This document shows positions 25,641 to 52,483 of a stretch of DNA of 59,154 nucleotides, in pieces. Under the pieces are notes generated by a model. That model did not search any database, was not told the DNA's origin, and saw only the letters and a list, made by a program, of their open reading frames with translations. The DNA is from Xenorhabdus eapokensis (lineage in GTDB: Bacteria; Pseudomonadota; Gammaproteobacteria; Enterobacterales; Enterobacteriaceae): positions 1 to 59,154 of the forward strand of contig NZ_MKGQ01000023.1 of NCBI RefSeq assembly GCF_001908105.1. Reading direction: 5' to 3'. A program made the translations under genes and the position numbers. The first letter of the stretch is position 1; every line of letters begins with the position of its first letter.

Positions 25641-26690
25641 TTATTCATCGGCGCCCCCCTCCACCAGCTCAATCATCACGCTCTTTTTCGCCTCCAGGTT
25701 ACGGATATAGCCCAGCACTGTCTCCGGCTTGGTCCAAGTGCCTTCGTGCATGATCTGGGCGAGGCTGTAGCCGAATGCCGTCATGTCCTGCGCCGCCCCC
25801 ACACGGGCGCTGTGCCCTGTCCAGGTCGCATAGCGGCCTTTGTTTTTGGCCTGTTGATGTTCACCGTACACGACCGCCCATGCGTCTGCAAAAATCTGGG
25901 TCAGCGCACGGTTACTCATCGGTACCCCTGTCGTCACCACCGCCTGATTCGAACGATGCACCCGACAGAACACATAGGCATCGGGGTGCACGCTTAGGCC
26001 GGACACTTCCAGCCATGCCAGCAGGCGGACAGCGGCACGGGGGCTGAGCGCTTTCACCACCCCTTGTCCGTTTACAATCGTTTTGGTATAACCGACATTC
26101 AGTAACACACTGCCATCGCGCTGGTACATCACGTCGCTGACCTTCAGGCGGGCGAGGTTGGACACACGCAGTAAGGTATTGTAGGCCACAAACAAAAATG
26201 CCAGATTGCGGACGTCTTTCAGTTGAGCCGAGGCTTGCCAGGCGGCATCCAGCCGGTTCAGATCGGCGATCCGGAAAGGGATCGCCTGTCCCTCTTGTTC
26301 GCCGTTCACGATAGCCAGCCGGTGGATTTTTTTTAACACGCGTTTTACTTTCTGGCTGTCGCCGGCGGGGATCAAGCCCGCCTGCCGGTGCAACAAATTC
26401 AGCATGGCGGCGCAGCTGCTGATGGTAGCCGGTGCCAGTCCGCGTTCATGCAGCTCCCACAGGTAATCGCGCATATAATCCGCTTCCACCGGCAGATAAG
26501 GACGCCCCTTGGCGAGACACCACTGGCACCATTTGCGCACCGTGATCAAAAACTGGTTCCACGTATTGTCGGCAAAGGCGTCCTTGTCTTTGATAAAGGC
26601 CTTGAGGTTGCGCAGCACCTCGTCATTCAGATCCGCATTATCCGCTATCAGCACTACGTCGCGGCCAACCGCCTTCAATTCCTCTGCCAT
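25641..26690 (-). CDS. cre: Cre-family tyrosine recombinase
   Basis: The protein (349 aa from ATG at 26690, six bases after AGAGAGG; the ATG at 26696 is too close to that site) aligns by eye along its length with P1 Cre. All six active-site residues are present (counting from the ATG at 26696): Arg177 in NTLLRV, Lys205 in GYTKT, His295 and Arg298 in GHSAR, Trp321 in GTWTK, Tyr330 in GYIRN. The N-terminal core-binding domain (about 24-130) is also alike. It should recombine the lox-like site at 26932-26965 to resolve plasmid dimers and help circularise phage DNA. The truncated higB follows. Confidence 0.95.
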   Translation of the reverse strand: MAEELKAVGRDVVLIADNADLNDEVLRNLKAFIKDKDAFADNTWNQFLITVRKWCQWCLAKGRPYLPVEADYMRDYLWELHERGLAPATISSCAAMLNLLHRQAGLIPAGDSQKVKRVLKKIHRLAIVNGEQEGQAIPFRIADLNRLDAAWQASAQLKDVRNLAFLFVAYNTLLRVSNLARLKVSDVMYQRDGSVLLNVGYTKTIVNGQGVVKALSPRAAVRLLAWLEVSGLSVHPDAYVFCRVHRSNQAVVTTGVPMSNRALTQIFADAWAVVYGEHQQAKNKGRYATWTGHSARVGAAQDMTAFGYSLAQIMHEGTWTKPETVLGYIRNLEAKKSVMIELVEGGADE

Positions 26691-26696
26691 CAACAT

Positions 26697-27121
26697 CCTC
26701 TCTTTATTGGTTGCGCTACGTAAAAAGTAACGTAATAAACCCCACGAGGGGCGCAGATTTCACGTACACGCATCATTTACTGTTAACAAAAATCGTCGGC
26801 TATTTATCACTAACCGTGTCCGTTTCAGGCGGGCGAAATACAAGTCCATCCTGACCGTATTCCTACTGCAATAGTTACATAGCCTGACAATTTCACGTTT
26901 GACGGTCACGCCCTGCCCGTTTTCCTTCTGTCTAACTTCGCATAAGTACCATTATGCGAAGTTATCTGATTGTTGTCAATCCCGCCCAAAAGTAGAGGGA
27001 ATGATGAGCGGAGTTAATACGAGGCGGGAGAATTTTAGTTTCACAAAGTTATAATCTCATTCCTTTTTATTTCTGGCGGTACTTTTACTATCAGACCAGA
27101 TTTTCTTCACACCAAGGAACA
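26697..27121. other. Non-coding stretch upstream of cre
   Basis: Apart from the lox-like site (26932-26965) no gene is seen in these 425 bases. The divergent 66-aa gene begins at 27122, so promoters for both directions should lie here, as in the region upstream of cre in P1. Confidence 0.6.
26932..26965. other. lox-like recombination site
   Basis: Twelve-base perfect inverted arms TAACTTCGCATA (26933-26944) and TATGCGAAGTTA (26953-26964) flank the asymmetric 8-base spacer AGTACCAT (26945-26952). This is the loxP architecture. Each arm differs from loxP at one inner position (C for T in TTCGTATA). The outermost base is C on the left, where loxP has A, and T on the right as in loxP. It lies 242 bases upstream of the cre start. 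The spacer differs from that of loxP, so exchange with loxP should be poor even if P1 Cre binds the arms. Confidence 0.92.
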
Positions 27122-27322: not shown

Positions 27323-27438
27323 GCCGACAATTGTTACTTTTAACAGGAAATATCTAACTAATTTTTTATTACTTTTCGCAAACCTGATAAAGTTATAAAT
27401 ATAATGCGTGTAAAATATGACCGTTAGGAGTGAGTTTC

Positions 27439-28371
27439 ATGGACGCTTTCAATGACAGAATTTTTGAGGAAAGGTATAAAGACTTTCTGAAAACACGGAA
27501 TGAGTGGATGAAGATGGTCTTCAGCCACGCAATTTATGTCGATATCAGTGCTCAGGGCGCGGTTTACCGCCCTGTTGCGATACTGACCGATAAAATGACC
27601 CTGCAACGGGCGGAAGAATTACGGCTGGCATGGCAACAATTCGCGGAGTGGGCAGAAGGCAAACGGGCGGCGGGACTGTCCTCAGTTCCTTCGAAAATTT
27701 ATGCCCCTGTCCCTGACATTCTCAAAGGCGTGAAGACCTTCACCGTGGGCATATTCGAGGCCACCAGCACACAAAACTTTCTCCGTGAAGAAATTCTCCA
27801 AAAAATAGAGAAAAAATTGAATCAGTTGTATAAAGTAAAAGAGAAAAATCGGTTCTCCATCATTGATCTGGAACAGGACAGAATCATGATGGAGGCGTAC
27901 CCGAAAGGGACGCGGTTTCGCCGCCGTTTAAGCGGTTACAGGGATATTGTACTGGATATCGGCGCGGACAACACGGATAGGGTTAAGAAACTGACCAGGA
28001 AAAGCGTTAAAAATCCGAAAGATGAACGTTATCGCGTCAGTGCGCATGGCGTGATTATTGACGGAAACAGCCTGAATGCCCCTGATGCTTATGACATCAA
28101 TTGTGGCGAAAAACAAACCTGTCCCAGCTGCTATGACCTTATTTCACCGGTATGGTGCTCCCTGTTTTCTAGCGGCTCATTGTACCTCATTGCTGATATT
28201 GAGCGCGCCGAAGCCGCACGGAAATTTGTGGCGGACAACCCCCCTAAGTCCAGCCCGATCCCCTATAAAAAAAATGATCCGAAGCAAAAAGAAGAACAAC
28301 GCTTGAACAGAATTGCAAAAGCACAACTGCAAGCACAACAATATGTGAAACAAAAAACGCAATATTATTAA
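27439..28371 (+). CDS. Unknown protein, 310 aa
   Basis: I do not recognise a family. AGGAG lies eight bases before ATG 27439 (a GTG at 27430 is also in frame). The N-terminal half is helical with a basic stretch (KKLNQLYKVKEKNR, about residues 132-145), followed by a beta-rich segment with many Arg/Lys, then a Cys cluster (CPSCYDLI, about 230-237, and a nearby WCS) that could bind zinc, and a basic, Gln-rich C-terminus. It converges on the terminase genes. It may bind nucleic acid. Confidence 0.6.
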   Translation: MDAFNDRIFEERYKDFLKTRNEWMKMVFSHAIYVDISAQGAVYRPVAILTDKMTLQRAEELRLAWQQFAEWAEGKRAAGLSSVPSKIYAPVPDILKGVKTFTVGIFEATSTQNFLREEILQKIEKKLNQLYKVKEKNRFSIIDLEQDRIMMEAYPKGTRFRRRLSGYRDIVLDIGADNTDRVKKLTRKSVKNPKDERYRVSAHGVIIDGNSLNAPDAYDINCGEKQTCPSCYDLISPVWCSLFSSGSLYLIADIERAEAARKFVADNPPKSSPIPYKKNDPKQKEEQRLNRIAKAQLQAQQYVKQKTQYY

Positions 28372-28452: not shown

Positions 28453-29976
28453 TCAGGAAACTGACGAGAAATCATCATAATCATCAAGATATTTCATTGC
28501 TTCAGAACGGGTAGCGACTTCTTCAAAACCGACGTCTTCATAAGCGGGAACAAAGTCACACAACATACCAAAACAAAATGTATCCCACCTATCCGGAGAG
28601 CGAATATTGAGCTTCGCTCTCATCATTTCTTTTTTCATAATCACCCAGCGCCCGTTCTCATCAATCTTGACCGGGATTTTTGAGGCTTGTTCCGCGGTCT
28701 TCTGGCTTTTGTCCAGCCGCATTCGGCCATGACGGATCGCCCGTTGTGCGGCAATATTGGCGTAAGCCCGCTGATTGATGTACCGGTTGCGATCATACTT
28801 GCTGAACATTGGCTTACCCCACCGGATGCGCTGAACATCACGGCCGCGACGCTCCAGGATACTCGCCGTGTCAGAACCCACACCATCACTGTCCACCACG
28901 AGACTGATATTGGGATACACGGCCGGATCACATTCCAGATGAATAAACTCACCAAACTCCACCGGATCACAAGCGCCGTCCATTTCTATCAGTTTGTAGT
29001 TCACCAACCGGCGCTTATCACCACGAGTACCAGAGACTTTACAGATATTCAGGATGGACTTATCCCGCCCGTTACCGACGTCACACAGAGCGACCCAGCC
29101 CCAACCCTTTTCAAGGTACACTTGACGTCTGGCTGACCGATCGCATTCATCCCGTCCCAATAAATACCCCGTGACGGATTTCGGAAACTGGCCCAATACC
29201 TTGATCTGGTATTCCACGCTGTCACGGCCACCGTATTCGGCCAGCTTCATTTTGATAAACTCCGGTTCAACCAGGGGAGATTCCTCTGAATTGAGCGTAA
29301 TCGCCACATACAGACCATTCGGGTTATCGGGGTGTTTGGCGAGGCTGTGGTGGGTATCGTAAAAATACCCACTGGGGCGGGTTGGCTGGGACAATAACAG
29401 GATACGGTTATCTTTCTGTGTCAGCGCACCGGTAATGATACCAAAGGCTTTATCTGACACCCCTGACGCTTCATCAATAATGTAAAACAGGTATTCGGCG
29501 TGTTCACCGGCCAGCGCTTCTTCATTGCCCAAACGGAAGCCTTTGGGAATGACCGTCCAGACGCCCTTCCCTCCCAGCGCGTAAAATGCGGTATCGGTCA
29601 GCACAAAGTAATTTTGCAGCCACGGAAAGCGCCGGATACATTCATGCCAGTTCATCTTCAGGTACTTAAAGATGCCCGTCATCACCTGCTGAATTTTGTT
29701 CGCAATAATGATCACACGAGCGTTAGGATGGAACAGGATGAAACACAGGATCATGATACTAGTCATGTCGGATTTGCCCGTTCCGTGGCCGGAAGTAACA
29801 CTGGTTTTGCTGCCGCACTCCTGTACCGACTCCAAAATCAGGTCTTGTTGCCAAGTGGGGATTTTACCGAAAAGATGGACAGCGGCCAGTCCCCAGTCGT
29901 AACGATATTTGATGACTATCTCCCGCCAGCGGGGATCACTGACAACGCTGCGTTGTTTCTTTCGTCCTGATGCCAC
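28453..29976 (-). CDS. pacB: Terminase large subunit (PacB-like)
   Basis: The 507-residue protein carries a full terminase set: Walker A SGHGTGKS (62-69), Walker B LFYIIDEA with Asp168-Glu169 (163-170), coupling segment LLLSQPTR, and a nuclease domain with Asp299 in [21 protein letters not shown] and a late SPDRWDTF. It packages DNA by headful packaging and cuts the concatemer. Its length is close to P1 PacB, and it follows a PacA-like gene in the same order as in P1. The start codon is GTG at 29976, overlapping the TAG of pacA (TAGTG), so translation is coupled. Confidence 0.88.
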
Positions 29977-31151
29977 TACCGCGCGTCCCCATCATGATAA
30001 ATATCCTCCGTGGCCTCATAGTCATAGTCCGGCTCGTCGTCCAACGCATCCAGCAATTCGCCTTCGCGACCTTCGCCCAGATGATCAACATCTCCGTAAC
30101 CGCCTTTATCGACAATTTCATCAACTTGCTGGCGCTTAACAACAATATAGGCATCACGTCCGGCTTGCTGCGCCCGATACGCCCTGGCCTGCCTGTCCAG
30201 TTCATCCTGATCAATAATTTCGTTATCCACCTCCTCGCCCTGCGACTGTTTCAGGTCGTGGCGCACTTTATCCAACAAGGCGGGTGGCACTTTCCCTCCG
30301 TTGGACTCGATATAAATCGCCGTTTGCATGGCATCCCAGCCCTGCTCCTGCTGAAGGTGATAAGCATTGGCGATAACCGTCGTCTCCCCCATCTTAACCG
30401 CGTGCTTTTCCTCTTCACGGCGATCCTTCAGTAACCCCTGTTTGATGGCGGTCATGGTGCGCATAAAATCGGTCATGGCATACGAACAGTCATTCAGCAT
30501 CTTGAGCTGCTTAAATACCGGATGCAGCGCACCTTCATCGCCGGAATCAAAGTCAGCCTCCTGTTTTTCTAACTCTTCGATGGAGCGATCCCGTACTCGT
30601 TCCACGAGTGCAAAGTGTGCCAGTGCCCGTCGCATCAAATCCACTTCTAATACATCCAAATAGCCGGTATCCATCAAGGTCTCGGCTTTGTCTACATCTA
30701 TACTTCGGGGGCTGGCATATCGGCCATGTTTCATGGACAGTTCATTGCCCACCGTCAAGCGGCGACCGGCTCCCCGTGGCAATTTCTGGTGTGCGACGAT
30801 CTCAGCTGGCGGCATGATCATTTTCGCGTTTTGGCTTTTGAGGTGATTGGCCTGCTGACGATGATCACCGGTGTCTGCTCCCACCTTTGTCTTATTTGGT
30901 TTAACACTCGTATTGGCGCGGCTTTTCCGGCTTTTTTCCAGTTCTTTATTAGCAGCACTTTGGGTAGGTTGATGATCATCTTTCGCAGCGTGATCATTGC
31001 CTTGATCATCTGGCAAGAGGGGACTGGCCGAACGGAGATAACGCCGGGCGGTATTCGGGTTCAGATGATAATGTTCGGCATATTCACGGATACTGATCCC
31101 CTTTTCAGCGCGTAGTCTGTTGAAGTTTGATACGTGTTCCTGCCAGTTCAT
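29976..31151 (-). CDS. pacA: Terminase small subunit / pac-recognition protein (PacA-like)
   Basis: The 391-residue protein starts [18 protein letters not shown] and includes an N-terminal helix-turn-helix ([20 protein letters not shown], about residues 24-43) that closely matches P1 PacA as I remember it; the C-terminal acidic region with [10 protein letters not shown] is also similar. The start at 31151 fits that comparison; an in-frame start at 31196 would add 15 residues. PacA binds pac, and the TGATCA cluster lies within codons 48-112 of this gene. In P1 this binding depends on Dam methylation; a Dam gene is present at 49.9 kb. Confidence 0.88.
30815..31008. other. Candidate pac packaging site (TGATCA hexamers)
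   Basis: Five TGATCA hexamers fall within 194 bases in the 5' part of pacA: 30815, 30862, then 30973, 30991 and 31003. They form two groups (two and three), separated by 105 bases, like the left and right hexamer clusters of P1 pac, which lie on either side of the cleavage region and an IHF site. Two further TGATCA occur at 30082 and 30208, outside the cluster. GATC is the Dam target, as in P1. Confidence 0.8.
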
Positions 31152-31374
31152 CCCTATCAACCAAAGTAAATGCTCAATATCGGTGATGATACACAAGCCT
31201 TAATATGTTTGATTAACGCAATTTAGAAGTATGTTACTGAGTCACAAATTGTTCTTATCCAACTAAACTGACAATTTTTACTGTTCCATATCTACCTAAT
31301 CTTATCTTTTTGTTTATTTAACACTCTCATCAAATTACATTAAAATAACACGCAGTGCATTAAATGTTGTTTTT

Positions 31375-31390
31375 GTGCATTCAAATGCAC
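31375..31390. promoter_or_regulatory. Palindromic operator upstream of parA
   Basis: GTGCATT-CA-AATGCAC is a perfect 7-bp inverted repeat 82 bases before the parA start. Half-sites AGTGCATT (31354) and AATGCACT (31441) flank it. P1-type ParA proteins repress their own operon through such repeats; that they do so here is inferred. Confidence 0.6.
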
Positions 31391-31471
31391 TTTTACATTA
31401 TCATTACTTCATTTCTTGATTTTGTTTTAATCGCATCTATAATGCACTTAAACAATAAAGGAGATACATTT

Positions 31472-32716
31472 ATGAAATTATTAGAAGACATATCCGCCAT
31501 CGGGCAGCGTATGAAAAGCGAACAGTGTTCACTCAAGGAATCAATTACTGAGTCTTCTCGTGTAAATGTTTCAGATGAACAGGTCGATGGGCTAGATCGT
31601 TTGATTTACAACCACTGCATGAATAAGAAAGCATTGTCTGACTTATTTGGAAAATCCAGAAACACATTTAGTAAGATTCTGGCTGAATTAGAGAACCAGA
31701 AAATGATAAGTGAACCTATTTATCAGAATAAAAATCATCTTTATACACGTTTTGATGTTCAAACCATCATGGATGCGTTGGGCGCACCTAAATATAGTGA
31801 TACGTATATCCCCAGAGTTATAGTCACGGAAAATCATAAGGGTGGGACGGGAAAAAGCACAACTACAGTGACATTAGGCACTGCTGCCGCTCTGGATCTA
31901 AATCTGAATGCTCGTGTCTGTATTATTGATTTTGACCCTCAAGGTTCTATTGGTAGCATGATCCGCTCAACCACTGAGGATGACGTTTTTCTGACAATAA
32001 CAGATATCTTACTTGCCAACTATGAACCAGAAGGTGAGTTTTCTAAGTACCTCAACGTTGGGTATTCAGAAGAGAAAATCATTAGTAACATTCCGTTTAG
32101 TACTCACTTGCCGAATCTTGATGTAATTCCTGCATTTCCTACAGATGATAGATTTACCGACATATACTGGAGTGTGAGCAAAGAAGAAAGAAATGCTCTA
32201 CTAACCCGATTCCGCGATATTGTGATACCGATTCTAAGAAAGAAATATGACTTAATTTTTATTGATACTCCGCCGCAAGATTCTCCGATTATCTGGTCAG
32301 TTACTGAAGCTGCTGACGGATTATTGGTGCCAATTACTCCCCGTGAGTATGATTTTGCTTCAACCACAAATTACATGTTGACGCTTGCTTCCCGTTTGGA
32401 ACAGTTCCCATCACGTGGCAAAAATATCAAATGGATGAAAATTCTTGCAGTGAATGTTGATGATAAAAGTCAACATGAAATGCGTACTCTCAATAAACTT
32501 GTCAGAACTGTTCAAGACAAATTTATGACAACTAATATCAAACACTCTGAGGCGTTTGTTGCTGCGGCAGAAAAAGGTCGAACTGTGCTTGATATTAAAA
32601 AATCAGAAGAATTGTGTTCACCTAAGCAATTTGATCTCGCTGAGATGTCTGTGCAATCGGTATACCAACAATTTATAAATGAGATAAAAATTATCTCTAC
32701 GAAAAGTGAGGGATAA
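31472..32716 (+). CDS. parA: ParA partition ATPase (P1 type Ia)
   Basis: The 414-residue protein begins at ATG 31472, eight bases after AAAGGAG; an upstream frame to 31364 lacks such a site. It has an N-terminal helix-turn-helix domain (CMNKKALSDLFGKSRNTFSKILAELE, about 49-74), a deviant Walker A KGGTGKST (123-130), DFDPQGS (153-159) and a later LIFIDTPPQDSP. These features define type Ia partition ATPases such as P1 ParA, which move plasmid copies over the nucleoid and repress their own promoter. parB starts three bases after its stop. Confidence 0.93.
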   Translation: MKLLEDISAIGQRMKSEQCSLKESITESSRVNVSDEQVDGLDRLIYNHCMNKKALSDLFGKSRNTFSKILAELENQKMISEPIYQNKNHLYTRFDVQTIMDALGAPKYSDTYIPRVIVTENHKGGTGKSTTTVTLGTAAALDLNLNARVCIIDFDPQGSIGSMIRSTTEDDVFLTITDILLANYEPEGEFSKYLNVGYSEEKIISNIPFSTHLPNLDVIPAFPTDDRFTDIYWSVSKEERNALLTRFRDIVIPILRKKYDLIFIDTPPQDSPIIWSVTEAADGLLVPITPREYDFASTTNYMLTLASRLEQFPSRGKNIKWMKILAVNVDDKSQHEMRTLNKLVRTVQDKFMTTNIKHSEAFVAAAEKGRTVLDIKKSEELCSPKQFDLAEMSVQSVYQQFINEIKIISTKSEG

Positions 32717-32719
32717 GCC

Positions 32720-33733
32720 ATGACAGATATAGAACGTGGTAATAATAAAGATATTTATCTGAGTGGGCAAAAGAGAACTGGCTTTGAACAAAGAAGTGGT
32801 TTGCCTTCATTGAAAGCTGTATCAAAGTTAAAACGTTTATTTACCCTTTCCGATGGTCGTAAAGTTGAAGCTGAACACATTGTTATCAGTGCCGATCAAG
32901 TCGAAAACCTAACTACCATTCATGAAATGAACCCGCGTAACCAAAATGCATTAGATGACCACGCAGTTCGTGATATCCTAGAACAGATCCGGTTAAGAGG
33001 AGTAGACACCGAAGGTGTTGCAATTAAACGCAGTAATAAATTTGTCCTTATTGAGGGAAGCCGGCGTAGATATTGCTGCCTAAAAGTAAAGGCAGATTTG
33101 CCATTGTGGGTGTTACCGGATGATCTGACAACAGAAGATATTAATGCACTGATCAACGCATCGCAAAGTTCGAAGAAATTTTCATTCCGCGAAGTAGGAA
33201 AGCAATACCAAGAAAAAATGAGATCACTTGGGTTTAATACTAACGAGGAATTAGGACAGTATTTAGGTGTAAGCGTGGAATCCGTCCGTAAACGTATTCA
33301 AGCTGCGTTGATTGATGAGAGATTTATATCTATCTTCCCTGATTCAGAAGGTATACCAAATAGCTTCTATTCACGTATAGCAAAAATCCAGAGATTAGCA
33401 GAAAAGAATAAACTCAATTTCGATAAATTATGTGCCAAAGTTGCTGTTGAAACTGAAATAGGTGATGTCATTGATATAGAAAGGAGACAGCGCTCCATCA
33501 TGGATGATTTAACGGTTTCCTTAGAATTGATGACATCGAACAATCCAGTGAAAGGTTGGGAAACTGCTGATCTGATTTCTTTCGATAATAAAGATAAATA
33601 TGCACGAGTAAGTCGCAGTGCGAACGGGCGTAAGGTGAAGTTTGAATTTAATAGATTGAGTACCAATCTTATAGAAGAAATTGAGCAATTGATTATTGAT
33701 CGACTAAAAAGCGAGTCTACCTCAGTGGGGTAA
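32720..33733 (+). CDS. parB: ParB centromere-binding protein (P1 type)
   Basis: The 337-residue protein matches P1/SopB-type ParB: N-terminal ParA-interaction region, GSRRRYCC (about 113-120) in the CTP-binding box, a helix-turn-helix in NEELGQYLGVSVESVRKRIQAAL (about 175-197) and a C-terminal dimer domain. It should bind a centromere-like site, probably the repeats directly after the gene, load onto flanking DNA and activate ParA. The last codon overlaps the first repeat. Confidence 0.92.
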   Translation: MTDIERGNNKDIYLSGQKRTGFEQRSGLPSLKAVSKLKRLFTLSDGRKVEAEHIVISADQVENLTTIHEMNPRNQNALDDHAVRDILEQIRLRGVDTEGVAIKRSNKFVLIEGSRRRYCCLKVKADLPLWVLPDDLTTEDINALINASQSSKKFSFREVGKQYQEKMRSLGFNTNEELGQYLGVSVESVRKRIQAALIDERFISIFPDSEGIPNSFYSRIAKIQRLAEKNKLNFDKLCAKVAVETEIGDVIDIERRQRSIMDDLTVSLELMTSNNPVKGWETADLISFDNKDKYARVSRSANGRKVKFEFNRLSTNLIEEIEQLIIDRLKSESTSVG

Positions 33734-36106: not shown

Positions 36107-36685
36107 TCAAATATGGGTGGGAATTACCGCCCAGTTTTCGGCCAGCTGATCCTGAACCGACGGATTCCAAGAAATAGCGATGCCATCAGGCGTGATAAAT
36201 AAAAATTTGGCATGTTCATCAGGTCGGTGCTTATCACAGTGCAATTTCACACACCCCTCGACCCAATTTGCACGATAGATACTGTAATCACGCCGTATCA
36301 TGAGGTTTAGCGCTGACGGATAATCCATTAATATAACACCAGGGAGATTGGCACGACTTTTCTTTGCATTATCCTGTACGTTATCCACGCATATATTGTC
36401 AGTAATTGCTTGTTGTTCCTGGGATAAGCAACGCGCATAATCAGGCATTGCCTCACCGATCATTTTCCATAAATTTTTTATCCCGCCGACGGCATAATGA
36501 AGTGTCGCTTTTGTGATACCAGCACGTTCATACAAATAGTGAGCCTGTACCTTTTCTCCTTCGTTTTCAACATATAGTTCAAGCAGGCAAACCATACAAT
36601 GCGCAATTTTCCGTTTGGTTGAATTACGCTTAATTGATGGCTTATCCAGTAACCATTCATAGAATAACTCTTCATTGAATTTCAT
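36107..36685 (-). CDS. Unknown protein, 192 aa, with HTH-like N-terminus
   Basis: The N-terminal half contains a helical segment resembling a helix-turn-helix (AHYLYERAGITKATLHYAVGGIKNLWKMIGEAM, about 49-79), then an acidic linker and a beta-rich C-terminus (LHCDKHRPDEHAKFLFITPDGIAISWN). It overlaps nothing and starts three bases after the nuclease gene stops. It might regulate or assist the VRR-NUC protein. No family recognised. Confidence 0.55.
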   Translation of the reverse strand: MKFNEELFYEWLLDKPSIKRNSTKRKIAHCMVCLLELYVENEGEKVQAHYLYERAGITKATLHYAVGGIKNLWKMIGEAMPDYARCLSQEQQAITDNICVDNVQDNAKKSRANLPGVILMDYPSALNLMIRRDYSIYRANWVEGCVKLHCDKHRPDEHAKFLFITPDGIAISWNPSVQDQLAENWAVIPTHI

Positions 36686-47936: not shown

Positions 47937-47978
47937 AAGCCTAAAAACCAATCAGTAAAGTTGGTTTTTAGGCTTTCT
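47937..47978. terminator. Bidirectional terminator between pro and icd-like genes
   Basis: A perfect 15-bp stem (AAGCCTAAAAACCAA with its complement) and a 9-base loop span 47937-47975. The plus strand continues TCTT and the minus strand TTTTG, so each tail is modest. It can end transcripts from both converging genes. Confidence 0.75.
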
Positions 47979-48483: not shown

Positions 48484-48858
48484 GATTTACTACTGCTTTT
48501 CTAAGATACTCTTTACCAAGGATTTAAGTCAAGCAAGTTATTAACCTCTCAAACATGGTATATAAAAATATCTAAACAAAAATTGCATAAAACGTTAAAA
48601 TAACTCATAAAAAACAATGAATTAAATAAAGAAACAATAAAAATATCTAAAATAATTTTTATTGTTATATTGATCTAATAATAGGATCGCGTGTAGGATC
48701 GCTCCGCGATGCAGGCTTGCCTGTATTAAAGTCCGGTTAAACACTGATAGGCAAAAAAAAGCGCCAGTTCACTACACTGACGCTCTTCTTTTCACCCTTA
48801 GGATGATGCTTTCTTGCTGCAAACAAGAAAACAATGAATATTTTATTGGAAACAAAAT
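48484..48858. other. AT-rich region upstream of the RepL-like gene
   Basis: No gene. A 12-bp perfect AT inverted repeat, AACAATAAAAAT with its complement, spans 48633-48666. GGATCGC occurs twice at 48684-48705 with an inverted GCGATG nearby, a possible regulator site. A hairpin lies at 48760-48784. The stretch probably contains the promoter and control sites of the next gene. Confidence 0.5.
48752..48784 (-). terminator. Hairpin with minus-strand T tract in the RepL-like leader
   Basis: AGCGCCAGT (48760-48768) and ACTGACGCT (48776-48784) pair with one C-A mismatch as plus-strand RNA but pair fully, with one G-U, as minus-strand RNA, which then runs into nine T. It would stop an antisense transcript arriving from the repL side; on the plus strand the weaker stem with CTTCTTTTC might attenuate the leader. 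Confidence 0.6.
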
Positions 48859-50799: not shown

Positions 50800-51837
50800 T
50801 TATTGTTTTTTCTTGTTACTTCTTTTTTTTCTTGATGCTATTAAATTGTCTATTTTTTCCACAGATAATTTATCTCCGATTATCTTATAATAACTCAAAA
50901 GTTTGGTTAAATCTGCAACAAGCAATTCCATGTTTTTATCGTATTTTTTTAATTTCTTACGATAGTCATTTAAAGCCTCTATACATCTCCTAGCCCAAAT
51001 TCCTTCAGCATCACTGCCTTTTATCACTCTAGGTCGTCTTGGTAAACGTGGTCTAGCTGGCTTAACAGAAATGGCTCCATCTTTATCACATATAAAGTGA
51101 AAAGTAATAGCAGTTATCCAGCGTCCTGTTTTCACTTGTTCATAAGTGACACTTAAATCAGTATTTGCATTGATCGATACTATAGCAGGCTCCAAAACTC
51201 TTTTTTTAAAATCACGATAATCATTATAAGAATCAATCAATCCGACTCTTTCTTTCATCCATACTATTTCAAATGGATCTGTAGATATTAATCCATTTGC
51301 ATTTTTATGTTTATTTAAATTCCTATACTTACTCAACCATGAGTACAGACGAAATGAAAATGGTGAATCCAATCTAGCAATATTTTCTATATTAAATGCG
51401 GTAAATTCATTTTTTAATTCATATAGATATTGACTAACTGATCCCGAAAATTTAACCAATACATCGCTATCACTTTTTTCACTAGCGCTGTAACTTAACT
51501 TTTCAAACCAGAATCTTTGTACCTTATCAATTCGTTTCTTTTTTTCGTTCCATTCATACGTTATGATAGGTTTCCTAGCCAAACTATCAGCAGCATCACG
51601 AAGTTGTTTATAGCAATTTGTTAGATCCAATCCATATTGGCTCTGATAATCTCGCGCTTTTAAAACATACTCTTTCTGAGGCATGGGCTTCAACGGCTCA
51701 ACCTGATTTAATGCCATATAGAGTAAACGCATTTCAGATAATGATATGTCATATGAGCCTTCTATAAGCTGATTCCCTTGAACAATCAAAGAATTGCCTA
51801 CATTTAAATGAGTGGATGACTTAACATCGCTAGACAT
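50800..51837 (-). CDS. repA: Rep_3-family plasmid replication initiator
   Basis: The 345-residue protein has the two winged-helix domains of RepE/RepA/Pi initiators: GNSLIVQGNQLIEGSYDISLSEMRLLYMALNQV near the start, then LDSPFSFRLYSWLSKYRN and RVGLIDSYNDYRDFKKRVLEPAIVSINANTDLSVTYEQVKTGRWITAITFHF (the second DNA-binding domain, about 195-255). ATG 51837 follows AGGGGG. It binds the iterons at 52202-52379 as a monomer to start replication; dimers usually repress the gene. The basic C-terminus is typical. Partial iteron-like motifs upstream of the gene could be the operator. Confidence 0.92.
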   Translation of the reverse strand: MSSDVKSSTHLNVGNSLIVQGNQLIEGSYDISLSEMRLLYMALNQVEPLKPMPQKEYVLKARDYQSQYGLDLTNCYKQLRDAADSLARKPIITYEWNEKKKRIDKVQRFWFEKLSYSASEKSDSDVLVKFSGSVSQYLYELKNEFTAFNIENIARLDSPFSFRLYSWLSKYRNLNKHKNANGLISTDPFEIVWMKERVGLIDSYNDYRDFKKRVLEPAIVSINANTDLSVTYEQVKTGRWITAITFHFICDKDGAISVKPARPRLPRRPRVIKGSDAEGIWARRCIEALNDYRKKLKKYDKNMELLVADLTKLLSYYKIIGDKLSVEKIDNLIASRKKRSNKKKQ

Positions 51838-51914
51838 CAAACCCCCTAAATTAATTGCTTATATAAATTATGGTTTGAGTTTAGAACATACTAGATGTGG
51901 CATCAATTATTATT

Positions 51915-52450: not shown

Positions 52451-52483
52451 AGATCTTAAGATCTATATATGATCTTAAGATCT
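52451..52483. repeat. GATC-rich palindrome cluster at the origin
   Basis: Two copies of AGATCTTAAGATCT-like palindromes (52451-52464 and 52470-52483) hold four GATC sites at 52452, 52460, 52471 and 52479. Methylated GATC clusters in an AT-rich stretch beside iterons are the melting and SeqA-sequestration region in P1-type origins. Confidence 0.7.

Follow-up and report, generated by a model that had tools for sequence, protein, structure and literature searches.

The window, i.e., the whole 59,154-nucleotide stretch of Xenorhabdus eapokensis DNA analysed here, very probably carries the cre/lox module of a P1-like phage-plasmid, in which a tyrosine recombinase and a lox-type site make up a candidate working pair for dimer resolution and circularisation, of a kind already known. 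We infer the binding, catalysis and biological role of this enzyme from comparison with its relatives and with P1 Cre. The enzyme moreover belongs to a branch marked by an unusual asparagine, in which the site and the DNA-reading part of the protein seem to co-vary at an unusually high pace.

The recombinase and its lox-type site

The recombinase is encoded on the reverse strand by an open reading frame of 351 amino acids (25641–26696), which the preliminary description had assigned to the Cre family. A phmmer search agrees (E = 2.1e-77 to the Cre chains of the PDB, over residues 23–348). Identity is 39.7% to P1 Cre and 44.5% to Dre (phage records). The two-domain Cre fold is found in both the sequence and an AlphaFold model (mean pLDDT 81; pTM 0.69), of which the best 33 PDB matches are Cre or its Tre variant (the first 29 with TM 0.73–0.81, normalised to query length), the nearest structures being Cre and Tre with lox-type DNA. 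The six catalytic residues that had been announced are all in place (R177, K205, H295, R298, W321 and Y330), as is the arginine at Cre position 259, while the segment corresponding to helix J, a name taken from the literature, reads SNRALTQ. At the position of Cre E176, the enzyme has an asparagine (N180) instead of an acidic residue, which we treat as variation because the other Cre-type features hold.

Upstream of the gene, at 26932–26965, lies the 34-bp site CTAACTTCGCATA-AGTACCAT-TATGCGAAGTTAT (in the orientation towards cre: ATAACTTCGCATA-ATGGTACT-TATGCGAAGTTAG), with inverted 13-bp arms around an asymmetric 8-bp spacer (26945–26952; AGTACCAT, or ATGGTACT towards cre). The inner 12 bases of both arms and the first and last spacer bases mirror each other exactly, so that the sole mismatch between the arms is at the outermost base. 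The distance from the site to the ATG is 235 bases, not 242 as first reported. In contrast, the loxP architecture is confirmed: this is the sole match to the loxP arms in the window (at most three mismatches), and the same search has matches in 0 of 100 dinucleotide shuffles. Inverted 13-8-13 repeats with at most one mismatch occur twice in the window, at this site and in an AT-rich segment (48633–48666), versus none in 19 block shuffles out of 20 and one in the remaining shuffle. Two other inverted repeats of the window are perfect and not lox-like (47939–47973, 13-9-13; 52451–52483, 13-7-13).

The closest relative is the recombinase of plasmid pXT141 from Xenorhabdus sp. TCT-1 (AP028979.1, BET98861.1; 96% identical protein), a plasmid typed as conjugative with an IncC replicon. 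Its site, 239 bp before the gene, has identical 13-base arms, while its spacer towards the gene (ATGGGAGT) differs from ATGGTACT at two of eight bases. From −36 to +33 around the site, the two sequences show three differences, two of them in the spacer (an excess with p = 0.03 for a block chosen after looking and p = 0.21 for a wider block), whereas ungapped 10-base bins outwards from −50 and +40 match at 1–6 positions out of 10; in a gapped alignment, likeness returns near cre. This conservation is what a site in use would be expected to look like. Exactly one such site (at most three mismatches) exists in the complete pXT141 sequence (141,469 bases), and there is one lox-like site in the window, which may be part of the element only. 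Parts of the window at about 10.4–24.9 kb also match pXT141 at 94%, and the segment 12244–20608 has Type VI secretion-type genes (TssF, a VgrG-like spike) and encodes two Tox-REase-5 domain proteins.

To extend the comparison, homologous loci were collected from plasmids, phages, a genome scan (at least 78 loci) and viral contigs, yielding 178 loci among the matches listed, which were reduced to 129 distinct full-length proteins by dropping 42 duplicates, 4 short sequences and 3 sequences under 35% identity. The catalytic R, K, H and R are present in all of them, and W and Y in 128 each (one gap each). A 13-8-13 repeat ending in ATA/TAT is found within 700 bp upstream of 107 of these 129 homologues (among the matches listed), compared to 16 of 835 random control windows from the same loci. 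The site filter (arms ending in ATA/TAT, at most four mismatches) was chosen after a first table had been seen, and the invariance of arm positions 11–13 is built in by it. No such site was found within 700 bp upstream for the other 22 homologues, i.e., three cut records (P1, D6 and L128), six P1-type contigs of which the upstream sequence is complete, X. yunnanensis and 12 others. In X. yunnanensis (L014/L181), the recombinase is preceded by a perfect 13-10-13 repeat (TCAACTTTACATA-AAGTACACTT-TATGTAAAGTTGA), of which the arms align with those of X. bovienii and which may be a Cre-type site whose spacer is 10 bp long instead of 8 bp. Read towards the gene, the 43 distinct spacers of the survey share a polarity whatever the arms (42 begin with A, 39 have T in second place and all 43 end in T), the spacer of P1 loxP (GCATACAT towards cre) being the only one to begin with G. 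The exact-arm pattern has no match in the viral contigs.

Residues and arm bases are also associated across the family. Among 64 clusters (90% identity), C at position 8 of both arms accompanies Arg259 in 19 of 20 clusters but only 2 of the 44 others, and residue 259 tops the variable columns for position 8 of the left arm (0.64; next 0.38). The window follows this rule, with Arg259 and C8; the X. vietnamensis enzyme has Arg259 with G8. According to partial texts, residues 259 and 263 face the DNA (PMC4957104) and Arg259 reads the C–G pair at arm position 8 (PMC6486577). For the left arm, residues 260 and 263 likewise score highest for positions 6 and 9, respectively, while the best columns for arm positions 10, 5 and 3 (111, 234 and 79) are not known contacts. 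A quick tree allows three independent changes of residue 259, and a comparison by independent pairs yields three pairs, of which 2.2 on average have the same direction; with just three changes, a sign test is unable to reach 0.05, and the link therefore accords with the known structure but is not a separate proof. Altogether, the same arms beside a 96% identical gene, the upstream sites of 107 homologues and the match between residue 259 and base 8 argue well for the idea, already put forward in the preliminary description, that the protein would act on its own site.

Probable phage-plasmid context and presumed role

The genes around the site follow the order and relative strands of P1 (pacA, pacB, c1-like on the opposite strand, lox, cre). 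The PacA-like (29976–31196, reverse strand) and PacB-like (28453–29976, reverse strand) terminase subunits are 30% and 61% identical to their P1 counterparts, and the C1-like protein (27430–28371, forward strand; 28% identity over 249 columns) lies between terminase and lox, as in P1. Plasmid functions include ParA and ParB partition genes (31364–33733, forward strand; 31364–32716 and 32720–33733) and a Rep3-type replication initiator (50800–51840, reverse strand), while further genes encode a portal protein, several tail proteins, DarA-like proteins and a 2233-residue protein with methylase and helicase domains. The element to which the window belongs is most probably a P1-like phage-plasmid. 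A megaplasmid of X. bovienii has the same order of cre, opposite-strand gene and terminase, then parM in place of parA, and has further stretches in common with the window. Two observations lie beside this comparison: a protein with a Tad2-like (Thoeris anti-defence) domain is encoded at 36107–36685, and one locus of the Xenorhabdus group (L183) is a broken Cre-type gene on a chromosome-sized 2.1-Mb contig, with an intact copy on another contig.

In P1, Cre resolves plasmid dimers and circularises phage DNA. By analogy with the mechanism of Cre, two sites would pair with a copy of the 351-residue enzyme on each of their four arms; the cuts would fall within the spacers, at a distance of 6 bp, and the strands would be exchanged by way of a Holliday junction, a process that would need matching spacers in the paired sites. 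As there would be one site per plasmid, two direct copies would be present only when the plasmid has dimerised or when injected phage DNA carries the site in its redundant ends, so that the enzyme would most likely serve to resolve the dimers of a low-copy plasmid and in circularisation.

Relation to loxP and competing readings

The pair had been described as orthogonal to Cre/loxP, with each arm one base away from loxP and an asymmetric spacer unlike that of loxP. The statement about the spacer is correct, since it matches the loxP spacer at one or three of eight positions depending on direction, while the statement about the arms holds for the right arm (position 10) and fails for the left arm, which differs at positions 1 and 10. 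With three arm mismatches in all and a different spacer, the site is thus not loxP itself (arms ATAACTTCGTATA, spacer ATGTATGC). Compared to the P1 system (Punavirus P1, NC_005856), the window has the same 13-8-13 site upstream of cre, the same six catalytic residues and the same phage-plasmid setting, but a different spacer, C instead of T at arm position 10 and Asn at 176. Newly characterised natural Cre-type enzymes, reportedly described by Jelicic et al. in 2023, may include related ones. Natural pairs such as Panto/pox, Nigri/nox and Dre/rox have been published (PMC4957104, in part), and the window pair does not represent a new kind. Like the window, Dre/rox (phage D6) and Panto/pox combine a Cre-type enzyme with a lox-type site, rox and pox differing from loxP at three arm positions (same source). 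Dre has Pro259 and Glu176, and the arms of its near relatives have T8, A9 and A10.

Orthogonality is only half right, as the spacers differ while the arms differ from loxP only outside the positions where Cre is strictest. Exchange requires matching spacers (PMC6486577, partial text), so that the window site should not recombine with loxP. By conversion of the positions in the same partial source, Cre is strictest at arm positions 11–13 and 8 from the outside, where the window site is identical to loxP, the changes being at positions 10 and 1; P1 Cre therefore probably tolerates these arms and may well act on two copies of the window site, with some loss. One may go further and regard the window pair as in effect another loxP, with enzymes interchangeable on both sites, a reading that we hold to be a serious contender, though well short of an even chance. 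The few arm changes (position 10 in both arms, position 1 in the left one) and the shared Arg259 are consistent with it, as is the report that Cre still recognises loxP fairly well when one arm carries several changes (PMC9586403, partial text). However, the differing spacers should block exchange between the two sites, and the window enzyme (N43, Q44, S90, M94, T262, Q263) departs from Cre (K, M, Q, Q, E, G) at these six positions and also at 86, among the residues compared, so that it may read loxP poorly.

Another reading is that the inverted repeat is mainly an operator, through which the enzyme shuts off its own promoter, recombination being secondary. A sigma-70-like match (TTGACA-17-CATAAT, 26951–26979, reverse strand; a consensus match only) indeed faces cre, with its −10 hexamer within the lox site and in the best-kept part of the intergenic region relative to pXT141, in which both hexamers are kept (the −35 is partly kept in X. 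vietnamensis). Yet, such matches are not in excess in the stretch (2 observed versus 1.8 expected from shuffles), and the asymmetry of the 8-bp spacer is in keeping with recombination. In 89 non-P1 sites, the best −35 towards cre (0 to 6 matches out of six in 1, 14, 33, 26, 11, 2 and 2 sites) is no better than the best one away from it (0 to 5 matches in 1, 13, 34, 31, 9 and 1 sites) or in shuffled flanks. We thus consider the operator reading improbable, while a lox-embedded promoter is possible in the window and its nearest kin. On the same grounds, i.e., the resemblance of the −35 matches towards cre to those in the away direction and in shuffled flanks, we rejected as a rule a lox-embedded promoter common to the whole family, an idea that came from the spacer polarity and from the TATA arm ends taken as a −10 box.

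Still less credible, in our view, is an enzyme made inactive or nearly so by the change from Glu176 to Asn, with the site as a relic. It is true that the acidic residue (Asp/Glu) at this position is conserved and helps to hold the active site in shape (PMC4381057, partial text), and that Glu is found in 118 of the 129 surveyed homologues. However, Asn occupies the position in all 21 aligned members of the branch to which the window enzyme belongs (among the matches listed), versus Glu in 118 and Asn in one (L173) of the 119 remaining surveyed enzymes, while the other six catalytic residues of the branch are intact wherever covered, near-perfect sites lie upstream of its genes and a Rec-seq profile was obtained for purified Cre E176A (PMC6486577, partial text). 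Finally, an integrase inserting the element into the chromosome at a site like 26932–26965, to which the Pfam and PHROGs class (phage integrase) might point, is the least tenable reading, in view of the ParA, ParB and Rep3 plasmid genes of the window and of the lack of any match to its arms (at most three mismatches) in four genomes of the genus Xenorhabdus carrying relatives with other arms.

Site specificity in the Asn176 branch

On the quick tree, the window enzyme groups with other Xenorhabdus-type enzymes, eight in all (SH-aLRT 100). The Asn176 branch includes sequences from Xenorhabdus, Photorhabdus, Yersinia ruckeri and Plesiomonas, and its alignment combines 10 proteins with DNA and 11 of 17 hits (P0002–P0018, at least 60% identity), drawn from the 120 matches listed out of 221; it omits P0002 (the window enzyme), P0008, P0014 and P0016 (judged the same as included loci), P0012, P0018 and P0030 (221 residues). 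Within this branch, none of 311 seven-residue windows varies more than the helix J stretch (257–263; 2.08 bits versus a mean of 0.68), while this stretch ranks 107th in 70 Erwiniaceae-type enzymes. For the ten branch members with DNA, the ratio of helix J variability to the mean is 3.13, compared to an average of 1.18 and a maximum of 1.62 in 265 overlapping ten-enzyme subsets of Erwiniaceae-type sequences of like diversity.

The arms tell a similar story. Over eight arm positions, branch pairs differ more than Erwiniaceae-type pairs at 60–70% protein identity (3.96 in 12 pairs versus 2.64 in 1035), at 70–80% (3.6 in 20 pairs versus 1.28 in 169) and at 80–90% (4.0 in 2 pairs versus 0.79 in 75), but not above 90% (0.0 in 2 pairs versus 0.68 in 38). 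This excess, about 1.5 times at 60–70% and 3 times at 70–80%, is strongest at 70–90% identity, where branch pairs are few, and is absent among near-identical enzymes. Among enzymes 67–96% identical to that of the window, the arms fall into seven types, or eight if X. yunnanensis is counted. Furthermore, two Photorhabdus enzymes (P0007 and P0009) are identical as far as Cre position 219, then have 26 differences in 220–280 and three thereafter, a pattern that possibly reflects a swapped DNA-reading segment. The branch appears to change site specificity fast through altered helix J. Whether it acts as a natural source of new Cre/lox specificities, with helix J diversifying (sometimes by a swap of the 220–280 cassette), the arms following in step and the rest of the enzyme remaining constant, so that related phage-plasmids would not recombine together, is a more tentative proposal, to which we give slightly less than an even chance. 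Asn176 may be part of what permits these new specificities.

Searches for further members and earlier descriptions of the branch had little yield. A genome search (E = 1e-115 or better) matched one of 392 family genomes, already known, a viral-contig scan with the branch alignment returned five loci, none new to the branch, and no title on the branch appeared among the matches listed for literature on Xenorhabdus together with Cre and for literature on helix J or phage-plasmids. Among arm strings sought in printed text (figures and supplements aside), AACTTCGCATA occurs in four papers, by title three on human liver cells and one on kelp, and three other strings are absent.

Two related ideas were considered for the family at large. 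Avoidance of cross-talk between co-resident systems finds no support either way in 10 pairs from 8 genomes (a count omitting a fourth locus of Pantoea A4, L086, with a short protein): co-resident pairs differ by a mean of 3.05 arm and 3.4 spacer bases, random cross-genome pairs by 2.5 and 3.2, and in one co-resident pair, that of P. ananatis, the enzymes are 99% identical, the spacers are alike and the arms are too except for the outermost base. In 80 non-P1 pairs at 88% identity or more, differences per site amount to 0.16 for the inner spacer and 0.056 for the arms. Nevertheless, a faster evolution of the spacer was not used as proof, as the pairs are non-independent and 29 of them differ in their arms but share the inner spacer, versus 7 the reverse.

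Taken alone, the window enzyme adds another candidate to the orthogonal recombinases available for genome engineering. Of greater interest is the branch, which would test whether Asn can replace the conserved acidic residue at position 176, and of which the arm types would provide an existing panel for studying DNA recognition by Cre-type enzymes, a matter now approached by laborious directed evolution.
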